A stretch of DNA of 20,941 nt, from the IMG/VR virus record IMGVR_UViG_3300006922_000237, positions 1 through 20,941 of that record. One strand, written 5' to 3'. Below the pieces are notes generated by a model. That model was not told the DNA's origin. It saw only the letters and a program-made list of their open reading frames with translations, and did not search any database. Positions 3,998-20,469 of the stretch are shown here, one piece after another; the stretch's first letter is position 1, and every line of letters begins with the position of its first letter. The DNA is from a virus. Position numbers and translations under genes: made by a program.

Positions 3998-4005
3998 CAA
4001 AAATA
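3998..4005 (-). promoter_or_regulatory. Bacteroidota-type -7 promoter element before portal
   Basis: Minus strand TATTTTTG, a match to TAnnTTTG, in the 30-base gap between the large terminase stop (4010) and the portal ATG (3979). The distance to the ATG is 18 bases, so unlike most of the boxes here it would give a short A-rich leader. Confidence 0.5.
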
Positions 4006-4009
4006 CTAA

Positions 4010-5194
4010 TTAAATTACAAAAAAGTTTTCTTTCTTACCAAAGGAGGAATAAACTGCATAACGAATAGAATCCATTAAATGATTTTCCTTGTCTTGTGGC
4101 TTGTTTATTATTGTTCCATCTTTTAATTGTTCCCAATAATAGCTTTGATATTCTCGTAATATATTCTTTGATTCATTGCTTACATAAATATCAAACTCTT
4201 TTAACTTAGATATTCCCGCATTTATACTTCCTTGCCCTTTTGTTGCAGGTTTTATATACAATCCCAATCTTCTCATCTCCTCAATAGATTTAGGTTCAGC
4301 AGAATCAGCGTAAGTAATTACCTCGCCATACCCTTTAGCTTTTAATATATCTACAATGTCGCTATTGGTTAAACCTTTTTGGTATAATATCTCGTGCAAA
4401 TAAACCCTATCGTGCTTTTTAAAGACAAGAACACAAGCAGTTGGATCATTACTATACCCATAGTCAATTCCGACTATTCCCTCTACATCTAAATCAAATT
4501 CAGGAAACTCATCATAATCAATGAATGTCCAGTTGTTAAATATTTGTCTTGCACTAAAGATTGCTTTTAATCCCTCTCCATATACTCTCCAATAATCAGG
4601 ATCACGAAGTTTCATTCTTTCTATTTCATTGACCAGTTCTTTTGATAAGAAGTTGTTGTCCTTGTATGTTGTTACCCAAGTATCGCAATCATCTCTTGGA
4701 ATTAGGTCATTATATATCCAGTGGATTGGATCTGATGGGTTAAAATCAACAATAACCATATCGGTTGTTCTCATATTGATTTGGCGAAAATCCTCTATGT
4801 TTAATTCATTGCCCTCGTTTAAGAATGCAATGTTTCTTTTACGACCACGAATCTTTTGAGGTTCATCTACCGAAAGAAACTCAATAAGATGATTATTATA
4901 CTTAAAAGTATTATCGGCTTTGTTATGTACTCCTGAAAAATAAATACCTGTTTCTTGTAGCACTATCATTATATCTCTCATTACAGAACCTCTTAATGCA
5001 GGTAATGTCTTACGGACAATAGAGATGGTCAAAGGTTTCTTTGATGTTGTAATAAGATAAACCAGGTATTGACAAACGGCTACTGTTTTTCCTGACCTTG
5101 TTCCTCCTTGATGGACTTTAAATCTTTTTTCTGATCTAATAAGGTCGTAGAATTGCCTATTGCATCTTTGTTCAACTTTCTTGGTGGTGTCCAT
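4010..5194 (-). CDS. terL: Terminase large subunit (ATPase and nuclease)
   Basis: A 394-residue DNA-packaging motor. The ATPase domain shows a Walker A motif, HQGGTRSGKTVAV (28-40), and a Walker B-like NIAFLNE (121-127) ending in the catalytic Glu. The C-terminal RNase H-like nuclease shows GIDYGYSNDPTA with Asp244, YADSAEP with Asp297 and HLMDSIRYA with Asp375, a plausible metal-binding acidic triad. The length fits the PBSX/Terminase_3-6 type of terminase. The protein docks on the portal, cuts concatemeric DNA and pumps it into the head. Its first 38 codons, including the whole Walker A motif, overlap the small terminase gene by 115 bases in another frame. No later ATG precedes Walker A, so the overlap must be real if the small terminase is full length. 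Confidence 0.95.
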   Translation of the reverse strand: MDTTKKVEQRCNRQFYDLIRSEKRFKVHQGGTRSGKTVAVCQYLVYLITTSKKPLTISIVRKTLPALRGSVMRDIMIVLQETGIYFSGVHNKADNTFKYNNHLIEFLSVDEPQKIRGRKRNIAFLNEGNELNIEDFRQINMRTTDMVIVDFNPSDPIHWIYNDLIPRDDCDTWVTTYKDNNFLSKELVNEIERMKLRDPDYWRVYGEGLKAIFSARQIFNNWTFIDYDEFPEFDLDVEGIVGIDYGYSNDPTACVLVFKKHDRVYLHEILYQKGLTNSDIVDILKAKGYGEVITYADSAEPKSIEEMRRLGLYIKPATKGQGSINAGISKLKEFDIYVSNESKNILREYQSYYWEQLKDGTIINKPQDKENHLMDSIRYAVYSSFGKKENFFVI

Positions 5195-13243: not shown

Positions 13244-14581
13244 TTATTCAAATTTATATAAATCAAAACTTGCTTTATCATCATCTTGATTTGGTAAGTG
13301 CATTACAATTCTGTATTGATTTTGTTTTACATCAAACTCTAAACTGTCAATAATAGCACTTACTGGTTCTTGTAATACTGTATTTCCAAAGTTAATCCAT
13401 AATTTATGATAAAAATAAATTGGCACAACATCAGAATCATCTTTGTAAAAAGAACCCTCATATTGTTTAATAGGTAAGCGATAGTCATTTATTATTTCTT
13501 GTAAAACACACTTATCTAATGTATTTGTGTTAAAAACATCTAAAGGTCTGTCTTTTCTCGTGAATGTACCTTGAATTGAATGTATGTCTGCCAAGTCAAT
13601 TTCATTTGACAATAATGTTTCTGCTTGTTTATATTCTCCAGTTACATTGTCATCAGCTTCAGTAACCGATCCATCAATAATTTTAAACTGATTACCCCTT
13701 CTCCTTGTGTGTAATCTTGTTTTAGTGCTTAATTTTTCACTTATTGAAACACCATCAAAAAATGCTGCTGCACCGAAATTTCCTGATGCTGACATTGCAA
13801 AAAGTTTAAATTCTATATGAGGGTTTGTGTCAGATGCAAGTAAATTAGTTTGTATTAATGTTTTGTATTTATTCCAAGAATCAAATTGTGTATAATCTAT
13901 TTTTTTAAAAAAACGATCATCAGTAAAAGCTATTGCACTATCATCTTCGCCACAATCAGAACATTCTGCTCTAAATCTGTTTTCTTCAAAATCGTACATT
14001 TTGTTGATTGTACCATTGTTTGTTGAATCAAGACCTAAACTCATATATTGATGAACTCCAACTGCACCAATTCCTGGTAATGTTTCAATTCTATAATTCC
14101 AACTGATTTCTAAATCTTTACCACTATTAATTCTTGTATCACTTAATGTATTTTTTAACATATGAGTAGTTCTTTCTTGTGTACTACTTGAAAATGGAAC
14201 TACAACTAAAGCACTTTGAAATAAACAATAAACACCTGAAATTGGATTTACCCTTGAATAAACACCACTTGGTATTGCAATGACTGCTTTTGAAGAAGTT
14301 ATATTCCAATTAAATGAATTATATCTAAAGTTTGGATTTTTATTAATTAAAGACATTGTTTCAGTTTTAGTGGTCTTTATTGCATCTCTAAGTGGTCTTA
14401 TGTATTCAACTATTAAATCTGAATTTATAGGTGCTAAATTGCTCGGTATTTGTTTTAAAACATCCTTGCTTTGCTTTAATGTCGTTTTTGCATTGCCCTC
14501 TTTATCGTAAACAAAAAACTCTATATTTTCTGTTCCATTATCTTTAAGTAATCTTGTTTGCTCATCTCTAAATATACCCAT
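13244..14581 (-). CDS. Putative tail or baseplate-associated protein
   Basis: A 445-residue protein that I do not recognise by family. It is rich in Asn, Asp, Ser and Thr with alternating beta-like segments and few helices, as in tail-tip, fibre or receptor-binding proteins. It has a lone CxxC (AECSDCGEDD, about residue 207) and a WNYRIETLPGIGAVGVHQYM segment. The C-terminus (FYHKLWINFGNTVLQEPVSA, IIDSLEFDVKQNQYRIVMHL) resembles baseplate-style beta modules. It is the last gene of the tail block, before the early genes. The ATG is four bases after a TAAATTTG box that overlaps the stop of the glycosyltransferase-like gene, so it may have its own promoter. Tail assignment rests on position and composition. 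Confidence 0.6.
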   Translation of the reverse strand: MGIFRDEQTRLLKDNGTENIEFFVYDKEGNAKTTLKQSKDVLKQIPSNLAPINSDLIVEYIRPLRDAIKTTKTETMSLINKNPNFRYNSFNWNITSSKAVIAIPSGVYSRVNPISGVYCLFQSALVVVPFSSSTQERTTHMLKNTLSDTRINSGKDLEISWNYRIETLPGIGAVGVHQYMSLGLDSTNNGTINKMYDFEENRFRAECSDCGEDDSAIAFTDDRFFKKIDYTQFDSWNKYKTLIQTNLLASDTNPHIEFKLFAMSASGNFGAAAFFDGVSISEKLSTKTRLHTRRRGNQFKIIDGSVTEADDNVTGEYKQAETLLSNEIDLADIHSIQGTFTRKDRPLDVFNTNTLDKCVLQEIINDYRLPIKQYEGSFYKDDSDVVPIYFYHKLWINFGNTVLQEPVSAIIDSLEFDVKQNQYRIVMHLPNQDDDKASFDLYKFE

Positions 14582-14585
14582 AACA

Positions 14586-14593
14586 CAAATTTA
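14586..14593 (-). promoter_or_regulatory. Bacteroidota-type -7 element before the 445-residue tail gene
   Basis: Minus strand TAAATTTG, a match to TAnnTTTG. Its first three bases are the TAA stop codon of the glycosyltransferase-like gene, and it lies four bases (TGTT) before ATG 14581. Confidence 0.5.
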
Positions 14594-15499
14594 CAATATT
14601 TGTTTTACAAGTTCATAATACTTAAAAGATGCTAAATTTGGATTTATTTCTAAATTTTTTGGTGGTTTTTTGTTTAAATATTTTGCTTTATAAAACTCTT
14701 TATTATTATCGTTGTTAATCCCTGCATTATGAAATATTGCATTTTTACCCCAAGCGTTTATGTTTTCAGTTGCCCAAGTAAAATCTAATTCTTTTATTAT
14801 CTCTGTTTTTCTTTCAAGTTTCCAAAGATTCCAAAGAACTGCCCACATATCTGCACACCAAATTTGTAATGGGTGGTGTCTGTCATCTTTTGCTCTTTTT
14901 TTTGTATTTAACTTAACAACCTCTGTAAATAAGTTTTCGCAATCTATTTCAACTTTTTCCCAAAACGTATAGTCAATATTTTTTAATATATAATGACAAC
15001 CACCTGATACATCTTGATTTTGTTTTACAATATCTTTATCAATGTTTGCTACATCGCACATTAAATTTAAAACATCTTCACCTTTAGATAATATATAATC
15101 GTGTCCTATATAACTTATTGTATCGCTTAAATAACAAGTGGGATTGCAACCACACAAGTAATGATCTATTTGCAATGGTTTTGTTAAAGCTATATCGCAA
15201 TCGTGATACATAAAAGTTCCTTTATATAAATCAGCATATTTATAAAAGTGTTTCTTTAAAATATGAGGTCTTACACTTGAAATGTATTTTATGTTTTTTC
15301 TTGTATCAGGATAAAAATAAAAATTAACATCAGGATATTTTTCTGTCAAATAAAAACAAGGATATTCATTGTTTGGTTTATCGGCAAAAACAATATCAAT
15401 TTGTTTTGCTTTTATTCCATTTTGTAAAAAACTATGTAACATAGCATCAACTTGCCACGAGTAATAAACAGTTGATGGTTGGCAGCAAACATATCTCAT
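14591..15499 (-). CDS. Glycosyltransferase-like protein (GT-A, DxD) within tail module
   Basis: A 302-residue protein with glycosyltransferase features: an N-terminal nucleotide-fold-like start (MRYVCCQPSTVYYSWQVDAM), a strand IDIVFADKP (34-42), a GTFMYHDCDIALTKPL segment (95-108) whose DCD at 100-102 is a DxD-type metal/sugar-nucleotide site, an acceptor-like QDVSGGCHYILKN (162-174), and a late IFHNAG (255-260) that resembles the His-containing closing motif of GT-A enzymes. No membrane segment or signal is seen, so it would act in the cytoplasm. The ATG directly follows the stop of the 1007-residue tail gene (TAAATG), so it is translated with the tail genes. It might decorate a virion protein or alter the host surface; the sequence does not decide which. 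Confidence 0.68.
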   Translation of the reverse strand: MRYVCCQPSTVYYSWQVDAMLHSFLQNGIKAKQIDIVFADKPNNEYPCFYLTEKYPDVNFYFYPDTRKNIKYISSVRPHILKKHFYKYADLYKGTFMYHDCDIALTKPLQIDHYLCGCNPTCYLSDTISYIGHDYILSKGEDVLNLMCDVANIDKDIVKQNQDVSGGCHYILKNIDYTFWEKVEIDCENLFTEVVKLNTKKRAKDDRHHPLQIWCADMWAVLWNLWKLERKTEIIKELDFTWATENINAWGKNAIFHNAGINNDNNKEFYKAKYLNKKPPKNLEINPNLASFKYYELVKQIL

Positions 15500-18400
15500 T
15501 TATTGTATCGCACCATCTGAACAACCTGGACAAGTTTGACTTGATAGTGTGTTACCATTCCAAAAGAACAATCCCTCACTATGTTTTATATAATTACCTG
15601 CAGGAAGAAATATGGTACAATCAGAATTTGTAAATACTGCACTTGCAGTTGCTAAAGAGGTTGAATTTATATAAACAAAAACTGGTTTACCACCACAACA
15701 AACACTTAAAGCAGATGTTGATACATTGGCTTGTATCTCGGTACAAGGTGCTTGTGTTGTAGTTGGTGCTTGTGTTGTCGTTGTACTTATGTATGCTTGA
15801 CAAGCTGCACAATCTGCAAAATCCAAGAAATTATCTACATCACCATTTGCACCTGAACCTCCATCTTGTAATGATGAGTAACATATAGAACCATCTGATA
15901 TAACTGATGGAAAATTATTTGTTTGATTAAACACCTCTATAATGGTATCATCTGCACTACAATTACTTTGTAAACTTCTATATATTCTATAAAATATAGA
16001 TGGTTGTGTTGTGGTAGTTGTAACAGGAACTTGTGTTGTTGTCGATATTCCTAAACAATCATCACAAGTTGAAAATCCAGTTGCAAATTTACTTGTAGGA
16101 AAACAACCTAAATTAAATTCATTATCACTTTGAGTGTTTGGTGTTCTATCAATAAAAGTCCAACAATCGTTATTAGAAATTTGTTTTATAAATTGTGGAA
16201 ATTCATTTTTATTATTTCCAATTACTTCAATTCTGTCATCACCACACTTTAAATATCTTGCAAAATCTGTCATTGTTGGACAAGTTTCACTTGGAGTTGG
16301 TTTTACAGTGTTACAAGAAGCATTAATTGTTATGGTTAAAGTTTCGGTTGTAGTTACGTTTTCAAGTATAGTAAAACATTCATTTGTTTGAACACTTAAA
16401 ACAACCCTTTCGCCAACACTAAAATTTGCATTATATTGAACTGTTAATCTATCTTGCGAATTATCTTTCTCAACTAAAAATCCATCAGGTGTTACAACAT
16501 CAGGATCACATTCAGGACAACTTGCCGTATTTAAAAGGTTTGTGCCGTTAAATTGTCTGTAATTTACTAAATCTTCAGACAAAAATTGTGCATTTGTTAG
16601 AGTTGTACAAGTATCATCAATAAATACTTTTGTTGTGTTTGTATTGTCAGTAAAAGATTCACCATTTATATAAAATGTTCTTGATGTTGGTGAACTACAA
16701 CATAAATTGAATGCAGTATCACTTCGATAAAGTGTAATTGCTTTACAAGTTTGAGGATTTGTAGGTTCAACATCAGGTTCAGGGGTATCAGCACAAGCCC
16801 CACTAATTGTTGCAAGACCTGATAAACTTATTAATGATTGACCTATTGATATTACATAACAATCGTTACCTGTTGATGAAATTGTAACCTCATCACCAAC
16901 AGCTTTAGAAGCATCATAAGGAACTGAAACTGAAGTGCTATCTAATAATTTTCTCAATCTCCAAGAATTCCAAGTATATTGTTCTCTTTGTCCTGCCGTT
17001 GGCACACTTTCACCTGTCGTGTTTATTGCATAAGCGTTAAAATAGTGTGCAACACCTGCAGTTAATGTAAGTGTTGGACTTGTAACACTTGTTGTATTTA
17101 AACTAAAACTTAAAACACCTGATATGTTTTGACCTGTTGCAACTGGTATTTTTCTATTTTTAGTATAATCGTTTCCATCAGTTCCAAAATAAAAACCATA
17201 TTCGGTAACATTACTTGTGCCTATATCTGTAATTTTACCCCTTACAGTCATAGATGTATTTTTTACATCACTGTTTGCAAGAATTTCATTGGTTACACTT
17301 GGACTTGCAGATGGTGGTTGTGTTGTAGGTTCAACTGCACCAGGTGTATAGTTAATCCTATCACCAACACCCTCAGTAAAAATATTTGTTTTTACATAAG
17401 CAGCAATAAAATATGTTTCTCCAGTGACCAAACCTGTTTGATTAGATACATAACTTGCAGTTGTGTCTGTTGAAAAAACCTTTGGGTTCGATTCTATAAT
17501 AGGATTTGTTCCAAAATAAAAACCTCTTTCAATTACCTCTAAACCTCTGTCATTTGTTATTGTAGCATTCAAAGTTACACTTGTTGATGTTGTATTTGTA
17601 ACATCATCAGTCGTTACTAATGGGTTTATTATTGTTTGGTTTTGGTCAGTTTCTCCTGTTTGACCTGCTGACAATGCTTTATCATAATAATTACTATTAG
17701 AAACAACATACCAACTCGCATTTGCTTGAAAAACTCTTGAATTTGTTATTCTTAAAATATTTTCTAAAACTTTTTTTGATGAAAGTTTCGCAAAATTATC
17801 AGTAAATGCAAATTCATTAACTAATATATCTTGAAATAAATTATTGTTACCTGTTATTACAGAACCTGCAATAGTTGTGTATCGTATGTTATTTTGTATA
17901 AAAATATCAAAATCTAATCCAGTAAATGATAATATTTTATGTAAATAATAAAATGCAGAATCTAAATTAGTTTGATCGGTTGCACCAACTTTAATTGTAC
18001 CATCAGCATTAGTATTTATATTACCATCAGGTACTAAATAAGAATCAAGAGTTCCCAAGTTATCTATTGCTCTTAAACTAATGTCAAATGGTTTTGATTG
18101 TATTGCTTCTTGAAAGGTATCAGAAACTAAAAACCCCTCCCAATAAACTTGAAAAATTGTTGATGCTGCCCAATTATAATCGGTTTCTTGCCAATTAGTA
18201 TCTGCAACTTGCCAAAGTGGTGAATTAATATCAGCTGCTTCATCTTCAACCCCAACATTAACCCTTACCTTATATTCTCTTTCATCAAAATTTATAAATT
18301 CATCATAAGATATAGTTTCGGTAGTTTTAATATTTAGCACACAAGATGAACCTATAATTGGATTATAAAAATCCTCATCATTAGTGTATGTAATAATAAC

Positions 18401-18523
18401 TGGGTTGTCAGTACCTACAATAGCAAATACATCACCAATATAATCCTTTTTTAGAATTTGGACACTTCTTTTATTTCCCTTGATGTCTGAAAAATCAAGT
18501 TCATATTTAACTCCGTAAGCCAT
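15500..18523 (-). CDS. Large modular tail protein (Ig-like and Cys-rich repeats, Thr-rich linkers)
   Basis: A 1007-residue protein. Residues 1-300 form a structural N-terminal part (MAYGVKYELDFSDIKGNKRS, EGFLVSDTFQEAIQSKPFDI) typical of tail proteins encoded after the tape measure. Two Ig/FN3-like modules follow (about 301-397 and 408-517), sharing TSVTLNATIT.../SMTVRGKIT and ERGFYFGT/EYGFYFGT. Residues 525-1001 hold repeated Cys modules in the order a-b-a-c-c-b, many ending in CPEC, CDDC, CAAC or CPGC. Two Thr/Gln/Pro linkers (826-842 and 911-926) look like mucin-type spacers. The start overlaps the tape measure stop by one base. The job is probably tail tip or host binding, with modules as exposed adhesive units. 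Role is inferred from position; the repeats are seen directly. Confidence 0.8.
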   Translation of the reverse strand: MAYGVKYELDFSDIKGNKRSVQILKKDYIGDVFAIVGTDNPVIITYTNDEDFYNPIIGSSCVLNIKTTETISYDEFINFDEREYKVRVNVGVEDEAADINSPLWQVADTNWQETDYNWAASTIFQVYWEGFLVSDTFQEAIQSKPFDISLRAIDNLGTLDSYLVPDGNINTNADGTIKVGATDQTNLDSAFYYLHKILSFTGLDFDIFIQNNIRYTTIAGSVITGNNNLFQDILVNEFAFTDNFAKLSSKKVLENILRITNSRVFQANASWYVVSNSNYYDKALSAGQTGETDQNQTIINPLVTTDDVTNTTSTSVTLNATITNDRGLEVIERGFYFGTNPIIESNPKVFSTDTTASYVSNQTGLVTGETYFIAAYVKTNIFTEGVGDRINYTPGAVEPTTQPPSASPSVTNEILANSDVKNTSMTVRGKITDIGTSNVTEYGFYFGTDGNDYTKNRKIPVATGQNISGVLSFSLNTTSVTSPTLTLTAGVAHYFNAYAINTTGESVPTAGQREQYTWNSWRLRKLLDSTSVSVPYDASKAVGDEVTISSTGNDCYVISIGQSLISLSGLATISGACADTPEPDVEPTNPQTCKAITLYRSDTAFNLCCSSPTSRTFYINGESFTDNTNTTKVFIDDTCTTLTNAQFLSEDLVNYRQFNGTNLLNTASCPECDPDVVTPDGFLVEKDNSQDRLTVQYNANFSVGERVVLSVQTNECFTILENVTTTETLTITINASCNTVKPTPSETCPTMTDFARYLKCGDDRIEVIGNNKNEFPQFIKQISNNDCWTFIDRTPNTQSDNEFNLGCFPTSKFATGFSTCDDCLGISTTTQVPVTTTTTQPSIFYRIYRSLQSNCSADDTIIEVFNQTNNFPSVISDGSICYSSLQDGGSGANGDVDNFLDFADCAACQAYISTTTTQAPTTTQAPCTEIQANVSTSALSVCCGGKPVFVYINSTSLATASAVFTNSDCTIFLPAGNYIKHSEGLFFWNGNTLSSQTCPGCSDGAIQ
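15746..15787 (-). repeat. Tandem codon repeat encoding Thr/Gln-Ala-Pro linker
   Basis: Near-identical short DNA units (GGTGCTTGTGTTGT twice on the plus strand, 18 bases apart) encode the linker TTTTQAPTTTQAP in the large tail protein. Such tandem units can expand or contract by slippage. Confidence 0.6.
15998..16048 (-). repeat. Low-complexity region encoding Thr-rich linker
   Basis: Encodes STTTQVPVTTTTTQPS, the second Thr-rich spacer of the large tail protein, between its two type-c Cys modules. The DNA consists of repeated TGTTGT-like units on the plus strand, similar to the repeat at 15746-15787. Confidence 0.5.
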
Positions 18524-20469
18524 TATTTAAATCTATTTCTGTTTCGTTCTGCTCTTTGCAAAGCAACTACTAAATCTTGACCTCTTAAAACAAACTCTCC
18601 TTGCATTGCACCACCACTATTTCCTAACATACCTTTTAATTTATTTAATGGTGCTATAACTTCAGGGTTTGATCTTGCACCAGGATATTCTCCAACTAAA
18701 GCATTTGTAGGACCTGAATATATACCTCCTTTTGCATTAGGTACTGGCGACATCATACTACCCATACCACTTAATGCGGCAAAAACTGTTCTAAAATTTA
18801 AACCAAAAATCGCACCTATTATAGCCGACAATGCTGCTGCTACTAATAATCTTTTAATTAATGCTTCAAGTTGTTGCCCTATTTTTTTAAAAGCATTCTC
18901 ACCCTCACCTAAATTAGCAAAAGCATCTACTAAGGTTGTACCAATAGTAGTTGCAAAAGACATTATCATGTCATTGTTTTTCTTTAATTCTTCAGCTAAT
19001 GGTATTATTGCATTTTCTTTAAAATCAGTAATTTTTTGAGTTATAGTTTGCATAGATGTTGAAAAGCCATTTGTAACCATTGTGCTTTTATCCATTACTT
19101 GTTGCCAAGTCAAACCATATTTTGCAGTTTCTGTCGATGCAGTATGTAAGGATTTTGGTAAATCATTATTTAAAAGACCTATAACAGTTTGCAAACCTGT
19201 TCCTAATTTAAATGGATTTATACCTAATAATCCACCTCCCATTGCTTCATCACCTGATTCTGTTGGGGTAGTTGTTGGTGTATCAAAAGTACCTTTTGGT
19301 TGTACTAAAGAAAAAGGTTGCCTACTTTGATTTTTACCTAATGCACCAATAAAGTCATTTTTTGCTATTGCATTTATATTGTTTTGCAATAGTTGTAATT
19401 CTGTATTAACTTTTTTAAGTGATAAAGGTTTGCCAATTATTCCCTCAATTAAATTTTTTGCATTGCTTATTTTAAGTGCCATCAAACCAACTAAAGCTGA
19501 AGTCAAAGCGATAATTATTACAGTTGTAGCTGATACCGCAGTTGCTATTGCGGTTGCTGCTGCTGCAAAAGCACCTAAAAGAATTAAAAGTGGAGGTATG
19601 ACAATAGCTAAACCACTAATTAGTAGTGTTATTCTTTGTGTACTTGGTGATAATTTTTCAAATGATTTAACTAACTCTCCAATCTTTTTAGATAAAGCAG
19701 GAATACCCTCTTTTAAATTTAATGCTTCTGCTATTTCTTTACCAAGTGTTGCAAGTGCTATATTTACATTATCTTTTAATGTACTAAACAATCCCTCTAA
19801 AGTTTGTGAAAGAACCTTTAAACCATCGTTAAAACGACCTTGTGAACCTGTTGCAAACTCAAAACCATCTTGTAAAACTTTAAAAGATATTTTACCCTCT
19901 GATGCCATATCCATTATTTCACTCCTTGCAACTCCCATTGACTTTGAAAGTATATCAAGAATCGGCACACCATTGTTTATAAACTGCCTTAAATCCCTGG
20001 TCATTACTCTACCCTCTGCTGCTGCCTGACCAAATGCTACGGCTATACCTGTCAAATTACCACCTGAAACTGCTGCAACATCACCCAACATTTTAAGAGA
20101 TTTAAAAGCATCATCTGATGTCTGCCCAAATCCCATTAACATATTGTTCACTCTTGTAAGTTCCTCTAATTGTAGAGGTGTTTCTGCACTAAATTTAACC
20201 AATCTTTCAAATGCTTTTGCACCCTCCTCTGCTGATCCATTTAATGTATTTAATGTAACTTGTAATCTTTCAAATTTAGCGGCTTGTCTTAAAGCTAATG
20301 TACCAACTGCAAGTAAAGGAAGTGATAACCTTGTGGACAACATTTTACCTGTCCTTGTAGCTTGTTGACTAAATCTCTCAATTTTACCCCTTGATTTATC
20401 AATATTAACATTGAACTGTGCAGTTTTTGCAATAAACTCGAATAATAATCTAAAATCATTGTTTGCCAT
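18523..20469 (-). CDS. Tail tape measure protein
   Basis: A 648-residue protein. Residues about 60-240 carry the tape measure N-terminal domain: RLQVTLNTLNGSAEEGAKAF, FSAETPLQLEELTRV, the MLMGFGQTSDDAFKSLKMLG and GDVAAVSGG segments, then AFGQAAAEGRVMTRDLRQFI and NGVPILD. Hydrophobic helices lie at about 280-334 and 540-560, and the C-terminus has the usual AKGGIYSGPTNALVGEYPGA and PEVIAPLNKL. Tape measure proteins set tail length and pass through the tail tube. At 648 residues the tail would be short to medium for a siphovirus. The gene follows the chaperone pair, as is standard. The ATG at 20469 is four bases after a TATTTTTG box. A Gly/Pro/Thr linker (about 395-415) separates the halves. 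Confidence 0.93.
   Translation of the reverse strand: MANNDFRLLFEFIAKTAQFNVNIDKSRGKIERFSQQATRTGKMLSTRLSLPLLAVGTLALRQAAKFERLQVTLNTLNGSAEEGAKAFERLVKFSAETPLQLEELTRVNNMLMGFGQTSDDAFKSLKMLGDVAAVSGGNLTGIAVAFGQAAAEGRVMTRDLRQFINNGVPILDILSKSMGVARSEIMDMASEGKISFKVLQDGFEFATGSQGRFNDGLKVLSQTLEGLFSTLKDNVNIALATLGKEIAEALNLKEGIPALSKKIGELVKSFEKLSPSTQRITLLISGLAIVIPPLLILLGAFAAAATAIATAVSATTVIIIALTSALVGLMALKISNAKNLIEGIIGKPLSLKKVNTELQLLQNNINAIAKNDFIGALGKNQSRQPFSLVQPKGTFDTPTTTPTESGDEAMGGGLLGINPFKLGTGLQTVIGLLNNDLPKSLHTASTETAKYGLTWQQVMDKSTMVTNGFSTSMQTITQKITDFKENAIIPLAEELKKNNDMIMSFATTIGTTLVDAFANLGEGENAFKKIGQQLEALIKRLLVAAALSAIIGAIFGLNFRTVFAALSGMGSMMSPVPNAKGGIYSGPTNALVGEYPGARSNPEVIAPLNKLKGMLGNSGGAMQGEFVLRGQDLVVALQRAERNRNRFK

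Follow-up and report, generated by a model that had tools for sequence, protein, structure and literature searches.

The IMG/VR virus record IMGVR_UViG_3300006922_000237, analysed here over 20,941 bases (the window), carries two adjoining minus-strand genes: one for a predicted glycosyltransferase of 302 residues, and the other for a 1007-residue tail protein with threonine (Thr)-rich linkers. Both open reading frames (ORFs) were confirmed and, as the first-pass annotation had described, the TAA stop of the tail gene is followed by the ATG of the enzyme gene as the very next codon. The DCD and HNAG motifs that it had named in the enzyme also lie where it placed them, and its Thr/Gln/Pro linkers are present in the tail protein, although their boundaries shift by 1-2 residues (827-842 and 913-926, rather than 826-842 and 911-926). 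The features of the gene pair are as follows.

14591-15499, minus strand: enzyme of 302 residues, PHROG_4417, predicted GT-A-fold glycosyltransferase
15194-15202, minus strand: DCD (DxD) motif of the enzyme, residues 100-102
14720-14731, minus strand: HNAG motif of the enzyme, residues 257-260
15500-18523, minus strand: tail protein of 1007 residues, putative acceptor, directly after the tape measure gene; where tape-measure loci include the enzyme, orthologues of the tail protein sit immediately upstream of it
15998-16045, minus strand: Thr-rich linker 1 of the tail protein, STTTQVPVTTTTTQPS, residues 827-842, putative glycosylation site
15746-15787, minus strand: Thr-rich linker 2 of the tail protein, STTTTQAPTTTQAP, residues 913-926, putative glycosylation site

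In an AlphaFold2 model of the tail protein, both linkers fall in predicted disordered segments, with a predicted local distance difference test score (pLDDT) of about 30, and the second linker is largely disordered. Their Thr density reaches 8 of 12 residues, while the other minus-strand ORFs of the window reach at most 6 of 12.

The enzyme matches PHROG_4417 over its full length (residues 1-301, E=9e-58), a family annotated as being of "unknown function", and homologues from Gram-positive and Chryseobacterium phages match the same profile. Pfam and NCBIfam assigned no family to the enzyme, and no Pfam glycosyltransferase match was found up to E=1 for the window enzyme or E=10 for seven homologues, including none that would place it in CAZy GT8 by profile. 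Likewise, the enzyme-family profile had no match among PDB sequences. The AlphaFold2 model of the enzyme, built with 46 homologues as input, has a mean pLDDT of 93.7 and a predicted template modelling score (pTM) of 0.90. Its best Foldseek matches in the PDB (E about 1e-7) are GT-A glycosyltransferases, including WbbM, UGGT (GT24), GLT25D1, GT8 and GT6 enzymes, and LARGE1, and the top matches in the viral structure library BFVD are GT-A glycosyltransferases as well. Template modelling scores (TM-scores) to known GT-A structures are about 0.4-0.5, and the enzyme therefore represents a divergent GT-A family. Across 59 aligned homologues from Bacteroidota and Gram-positive phages, with identity down to about 27%, 21 residues are invariant, including D100, D102, Q212, W214, H257, A259, G260, and K271; N258 is retained in 57 of the 59. 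In GT8 enzymes such as LgtC, a DxD motif and a C-terminal H..G form a metal- and nucleotide-sugar-binding pattern, which the C-terminal H..G of the PHROG_4417 enzyme presumably resembles. The DCD motif is likely the metal/nucleotide-sugar site of the enzyme, and the modelled fold, together with the motifs, points to a GT-A-fold glycosyltransferase.

A survey of whether the gene pair co-occurs elsewhere, as the first-pass annotation had proposed, drew on 80 homologous loci from a scan of viral contigs, pooled with later scans and clustered at 80% identity. Removal of loci found through Thr tracts left 43 non-redundant loci for a position test, in which a Thr tract was defined as at least 7 Thr in 12 residues. 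The gene immediately upstream of the enzyme gene encodes such a tract in 33 of the 43 loci, compared with 10 of the 468 genes that lie beyond positions -3 to -1 (Fisher p = 3e-34, a value that overstates independence because the loci share ancestry), and a Thr-tract gene lies within three upstream positions in 37 of 43. The arrangement is therefore not accidental. The upstream proteins split into 15 unrelated BLAST groups, and the association is therefore not the inheritance of one partner. The six loci that remain include two bacterial contigs (L084 and L086), L193, where a weaker TTAPPTTAPPTT repeat is present, and L204, whose 11 overlapping Thr7 matches lie about 24 kilobases away; L192 and L206 are taken up below. 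Reverse sampling found the enzyme in 8 of 50 records drawn blind for a Thr8 tract, compared with 1 of 50 acidic-tract controls (p = 0.015), and the sole enzyme-carrying control record also has a Thr-tract ORF adjoining the enzyme. Taken together, the locus survey and the reverse sampling indicate that the enzyme nearly implies the tract, while the tract does not imply the enzyme. The partner had been described as a virion adhesin; it need not be one, and is often a major tail protein, a capsid protein, or a small Ig-like protein. As a separate observation, many phage proteins in the Thr8 sample (L212-L331) bear Thr8 or longer tracts in records without a PHROG_4417 homologue.

The family extends well into phages of Gram-positive hosts, with homologues in 74 INPHARED records that include Lactobacillus, Enterococcus, Staphylococcus, and Lactococcus phages and others. 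Those examined have the enzyme either close to head or tail genes or next to a small Thr-repeat protein. Phages of Enterococcus, Lactococcus, Staphylococcus, and Lactobacillus encode it near major tail or capsid proteins with poly-Thr C-terminal ends. For example, Thr tails are carried by gp50 of the Enterococcus phage phiFL1A (...TTTTTSTTTTTTSSTTTTTTTQASSK), by orf13 of Lactococcus phage 1706 (TTTTTTTTTTHHD), and by the major tail protein of VPE25, and Lactobacillus phage Semele has TTTTTSTTTVKP repeats. Lactobacillus 521B fails the simple tract threshold, and the gene upstream of its enzyme has TTVKP/TTVAP repeats. The first-pass annotation had invoked the protein O-glycosylation for which Bacteroidota are known. 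That process is periplasmic, whereas virion assembly is cytoplasmic; for this reason, and because phages of Gram-positive hosts harbour the family just as readily, it does not explain the pairing.

The clearest comparison is among phages that share a homologue of the phiFL1A major tail protein. In L530, L531, and L533, the enzyme is present and both the tail protein and the capsid protein bear Thr tails, whereas enzyme and tails alike are missing from L532 and L534-L539, whose tail proteins are 64-88% identical. When annotated phages are included, Thr tails occur in 6 of 6 enzyme-positive and 0 of 14 enzyme-negative major-tail homologues (p = 2.6e-5), with the tract of one of the six, R3.3, counted on the protein directly upstream of the enzyme rather than on the major tail protein. 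Moreover, the Thr7 tract was absent from the record in 18 of 18 enzyme-free relatives tested, the tape-measure relatives of the window included. The pairing of a dedicated glycosyltransferase with a Thr-rich virion protein, as first proposed from this locus, is thus supported by co-occurrence in very diverse phages and by joint absence. The notion that Thr tracts are a mere marker of Bacteroidota phages was ruled out by the position test and the Gram-positive enzyme-positive/negative pairs.

Within L530, the capsid (1616-2611) and tail (4001-4657) proteins share similar Thr-rich C-terminal tails. In two further records, Staphylococcus phage SA2 (L554:3117-3930) and Arcanobacterium phage TPWB06 (L551:3164-3926), the ...TTTTTTTP end of the major tail protein coincides with CCC-TAA, past which the +1 frame stays open and Thr-rich over a long stretch. 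The arrangement suggests programmed +1 frameshifting that would place a long Thr tail on some tail subunits.

In the lineage of the window itself, comparison with enzyme-free tape-measure relatives involves the following additional features.

17675-18523, minus strand: N-terminal part of the tail protein (283 residues), with homology to residues 1-327 of the single-ORF tail genes of enzyme-free relatives (BLASTP, 31% identity)
14591-17674, minus strand: interrupting segment, made up of the enzyme and the last 724 residues of the tail protein, as judged against the single-ORF tail gene, with the direction of change inferred
16934-17626, minus strand: tandem fibronectin-III-like domains, residues about 300-530 (AlphaFold2 pLDDT 80-90; Foldseek matches to fibronectin-III tandems)
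13244-14581, minus strand: tail protein of 445 residues, homologous to the C-terminal half of the single-ORF tail gene (39% identity over 85 residues, plus a weaker N-terminal match)
18523-20469, minus strand: tape measure protein, giving the tail context (Pfam TMP_3, E=3e-31)

These relatives have one tail ORF of 773-794 residues. In L139, residues 1-327 of this ORF match residues 1-283 of the 1007-residue protein (E=9e-48), and its C-terminus matches the 445-residue gene downstream of the enzyme (E=1e-16); 724 residues and the enzyme therefore lie inside what is elsewhere one gene. The 724-residue segment consists of fibronectin-III-like and other domains with Thr linkers. Insertion of a domain-plus-enzyme segment into a single tail gene is the simpler reading, although loss by fusion in the enzyme-free lineage may have occurred instead. 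In either case, enzyme and acceptor appear to have been gained or lost together as a cassette. Beyond the tape measure, profile scans of the window proteins identified portal, terminase, head-morphogenesis, and primase-helicase genes.

Homologues of the enzyme are also found in bacteria, with matches in 37 of 400 genomes from the order of a Sphingobacterium. They are mostly 480-770 residues long, with the PHROG_4417 domain at the N-terminus, and one of the two scanned with Pfam has a C-terminal match to Glyco_transf_7C, a galactosyltransferase domain. Proteins encoded nearby include LanC-like, VKOR/C39, and C39-ABC exporter proteins, together with short GG-leader peptides that resemble TIGR04149 below its cut-off, some with Thr tracts (TTTTTTSS in L564) and others with none. 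This operon context, akin to that of ribosomally synthesised and post-translationally modified peptides (RiPPs), suggests that the domain acts on a peptide acceptor, and thereby weakens the alternatives in which DNA or a surface glycan is modified.

The enzyme is very probably an O-glycosyltransferase that works in the cytoplasm and is dedicated to Thr-rich segments of virion proteins of the same phage. We infer its catalytic activity and its choice of threonine as acceptor from the fold, conserved motifs, pairing, joint absence, and interrupted tail gene computed here; proposals as to the sugar, its linkage, the extent of modification, and the benefit are of the same kind. The soluble GT-A enzyme, translated beside its acceptor, would act in the cytoplasm of the infected cell before or during virion assembly, moving a sugar from a nucleotide-sugar donor onto threonines of disordered Thr-rich segments. 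In the window phage, the acceptor would be the pair of Thr/Gln/Pro linkers in the adjoining tail protein, and in other phages, the poly-Thr C-termini of major tail and capsid proteins. The transferred sugar is perhaps alpha-linked, because many of the top fold matches belong to retaining families. Candidate benefits include shielding from proteases, spacing or stiffening of the linkers, changed host binding, and hiding of the virion. It is also reasonably likely that PHROG_4417 and a Thr-rich tail form a portable, two-part glycan-tagging system for which any Thr-tailed structural protein is a substrate, with an enzyme domain common to bacterial RiPP-like pathways and, in some phages, +1 frameshifting at CCC-TAA that may put long tails on a fraction of tail-tube subunits.

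Several observations weigh against this assignment. The first-pass annotation had named homologues without a Thr-rich partner as evidence against the pairing, and some were found: the enzyme-positive phages L192 and L206 have no Thr7 tract anywhere in the record, and no Thr-rich neighbour is encoded in the DNA examined around most of the two-domain homologues from bacteria. Thr tracts are common on their own, as seen in the 42 of 50 Thr8 records without the enzyme. Near 58 enzyme-free Thr8 tracts, no other glycosyltransferase family was found among the top 25 Pfam and PHROG families listed, and Thr tracts alone therefore predict no enzyme. Finally, the linkers of the window are shorter than the Thr tails of most relatives.

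Among rival explanations, modification of host surface glycans, leading to superinfection exclusion or seroconversion with Thr-rich virion neighbours being incidental, has precedent in the well-known serotype-changing glycosyltransferases of phages (PMC12619734). It is nonetheless unlikely here, given that the position immediately upstream of the enzyme is repeatedly taken by unrelated Thr-rich partners, that tails and enzyme are jointly absent in relatives, and that the enzyme gene sits among structural genes. Nor was a gtr-like partner, membrane flippase, or bactoprenol transferase gene found among the ten window proteins scanned, a set outside which small ORFs fall. Virus-encoded DNA glycosyltransferases also exist (PMC12619734), but glycosylation of modified bases in phage DNA is extremely improbable for this enzyme: no base-hypermodification gene was seen among the same proteins, the link to Thr tracts would be left unexplained, and the bacterial homologues sit in peptide operons.

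Two other rivals each have a rather small probability. Tracts and enzyme could be linked, without any enzymatic connection, solely because both sit in tail regions where related phages recombine readily, as might be suspected from the mosaic nature of tail genes and the frequency of Thr tracts in enzyme-free phages; yet the association recurs with unrelated partner proteins across phages of several host phyla, centres on major virion genes or the gene immediately upstream, and divides tail proteins 64-88% identical into tailed, enzyme-positive and untailed, enzyme-negative groups. Alternatively, the enzyme could act on another site of the structural protein (Ser, Tyr, Asn, or Cys), the Thr tract being a docking or spacer segment. 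Ser is mixed into the tract in many partners, but the Thr-rich C-terminal tail is the conspicuous difference between enzyme-positive and enzyme-free homologues in the Gram-positive set.

Glycosylation of Thr-rich virion segments would have parallels in known systems. Phage-encoded virion glycosylation has been described in mycobacteriophage Che8, with glycans reported at the C-terminal ends of its capsid and tail tube subunits (Freeman et al. 2023, as cited in PMC12619734). The proposed system is similar in its phage-encoded glycosyltransferases and C-terminal capsid and tail targets, and its enzyme gene is genetically tied to a structural-protein gene by the position test and by joint absence, a tie of the kind that phage-encoded virion glycosylation calls for. 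However, Che8 gp108-110 show no detectable similarity to the PHROG_4417 family (in hmmsearch, negative bit scores and E-values of 0.1 or worse), a poly-Thr tail is lacking in gp6 and gp11, and the glycosyltransferase genes of Che8 lie far from the structural genes. A mycobacteriophage-type identity for the enzyme was ruled out by this lack of homology, and the PHROG_4417 version would thus use an unrelated enzyme together with poly-Thr tails. We found no published link between Thr tracts and phage glycosylation in the open-access literature, and one may still exist elsewhere. GT8/GT24/GT6-type enzymes have the GT-A fold and DxD motif in common with the PHROG_4417 enzyme, which differs in having no Pfam or PDB sequence match and TM-scores of about 0.4-0.5. 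In the GtfA-GtfB system, serine-rich repeat adhesins are glycosylated in the cytoplasm, and the enzyme genes adjoin the Ser/Thr-repeat acceptor gene. A cytosolic enzyme gene beside such an acceptor gene is thus shared, whereas GtfA and GtfB are GT-B enzymes of bacterial accessory-Sec loci, as opposed to a single GT-A enzyme in phages.

The proposal supplies a concrete function for a widespread phage family annotated as being of unknown function, and suggests that virion glycosylation may be common in phages of Bacteroidota and lactic acid bacteria, through an enzyme unrelated to those of mycobacteriophages. If simple Thr tails are indeed glycosylated, the recurrence of poly-Thr segments on tail and capsid proteins of such phages would be explained, and the system could serve as a portable protein-tagging tool.

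On the bacterial side, relatives encoded with GG-leader peptide, LanC-like, and C39 transporter genes recall the glycocins (glycosylated RiPPs), although the bacterial enzyme is mostly 480-770 residues long, whereas the phage version is single-domain with, as proposed, virion acceptors. The chromosomal operons L594, L595, L596, and L597 of the Sphingobacteriales order represent a possible, uncharacterised pathway for glycosylated RiPP-like products. Finally, the annotation of the homologue in Enterococcus phage 9183 (L548:1412-2281) cites homology to a PqqD-family peptide modification chaperone, which fits the RiPP connection.

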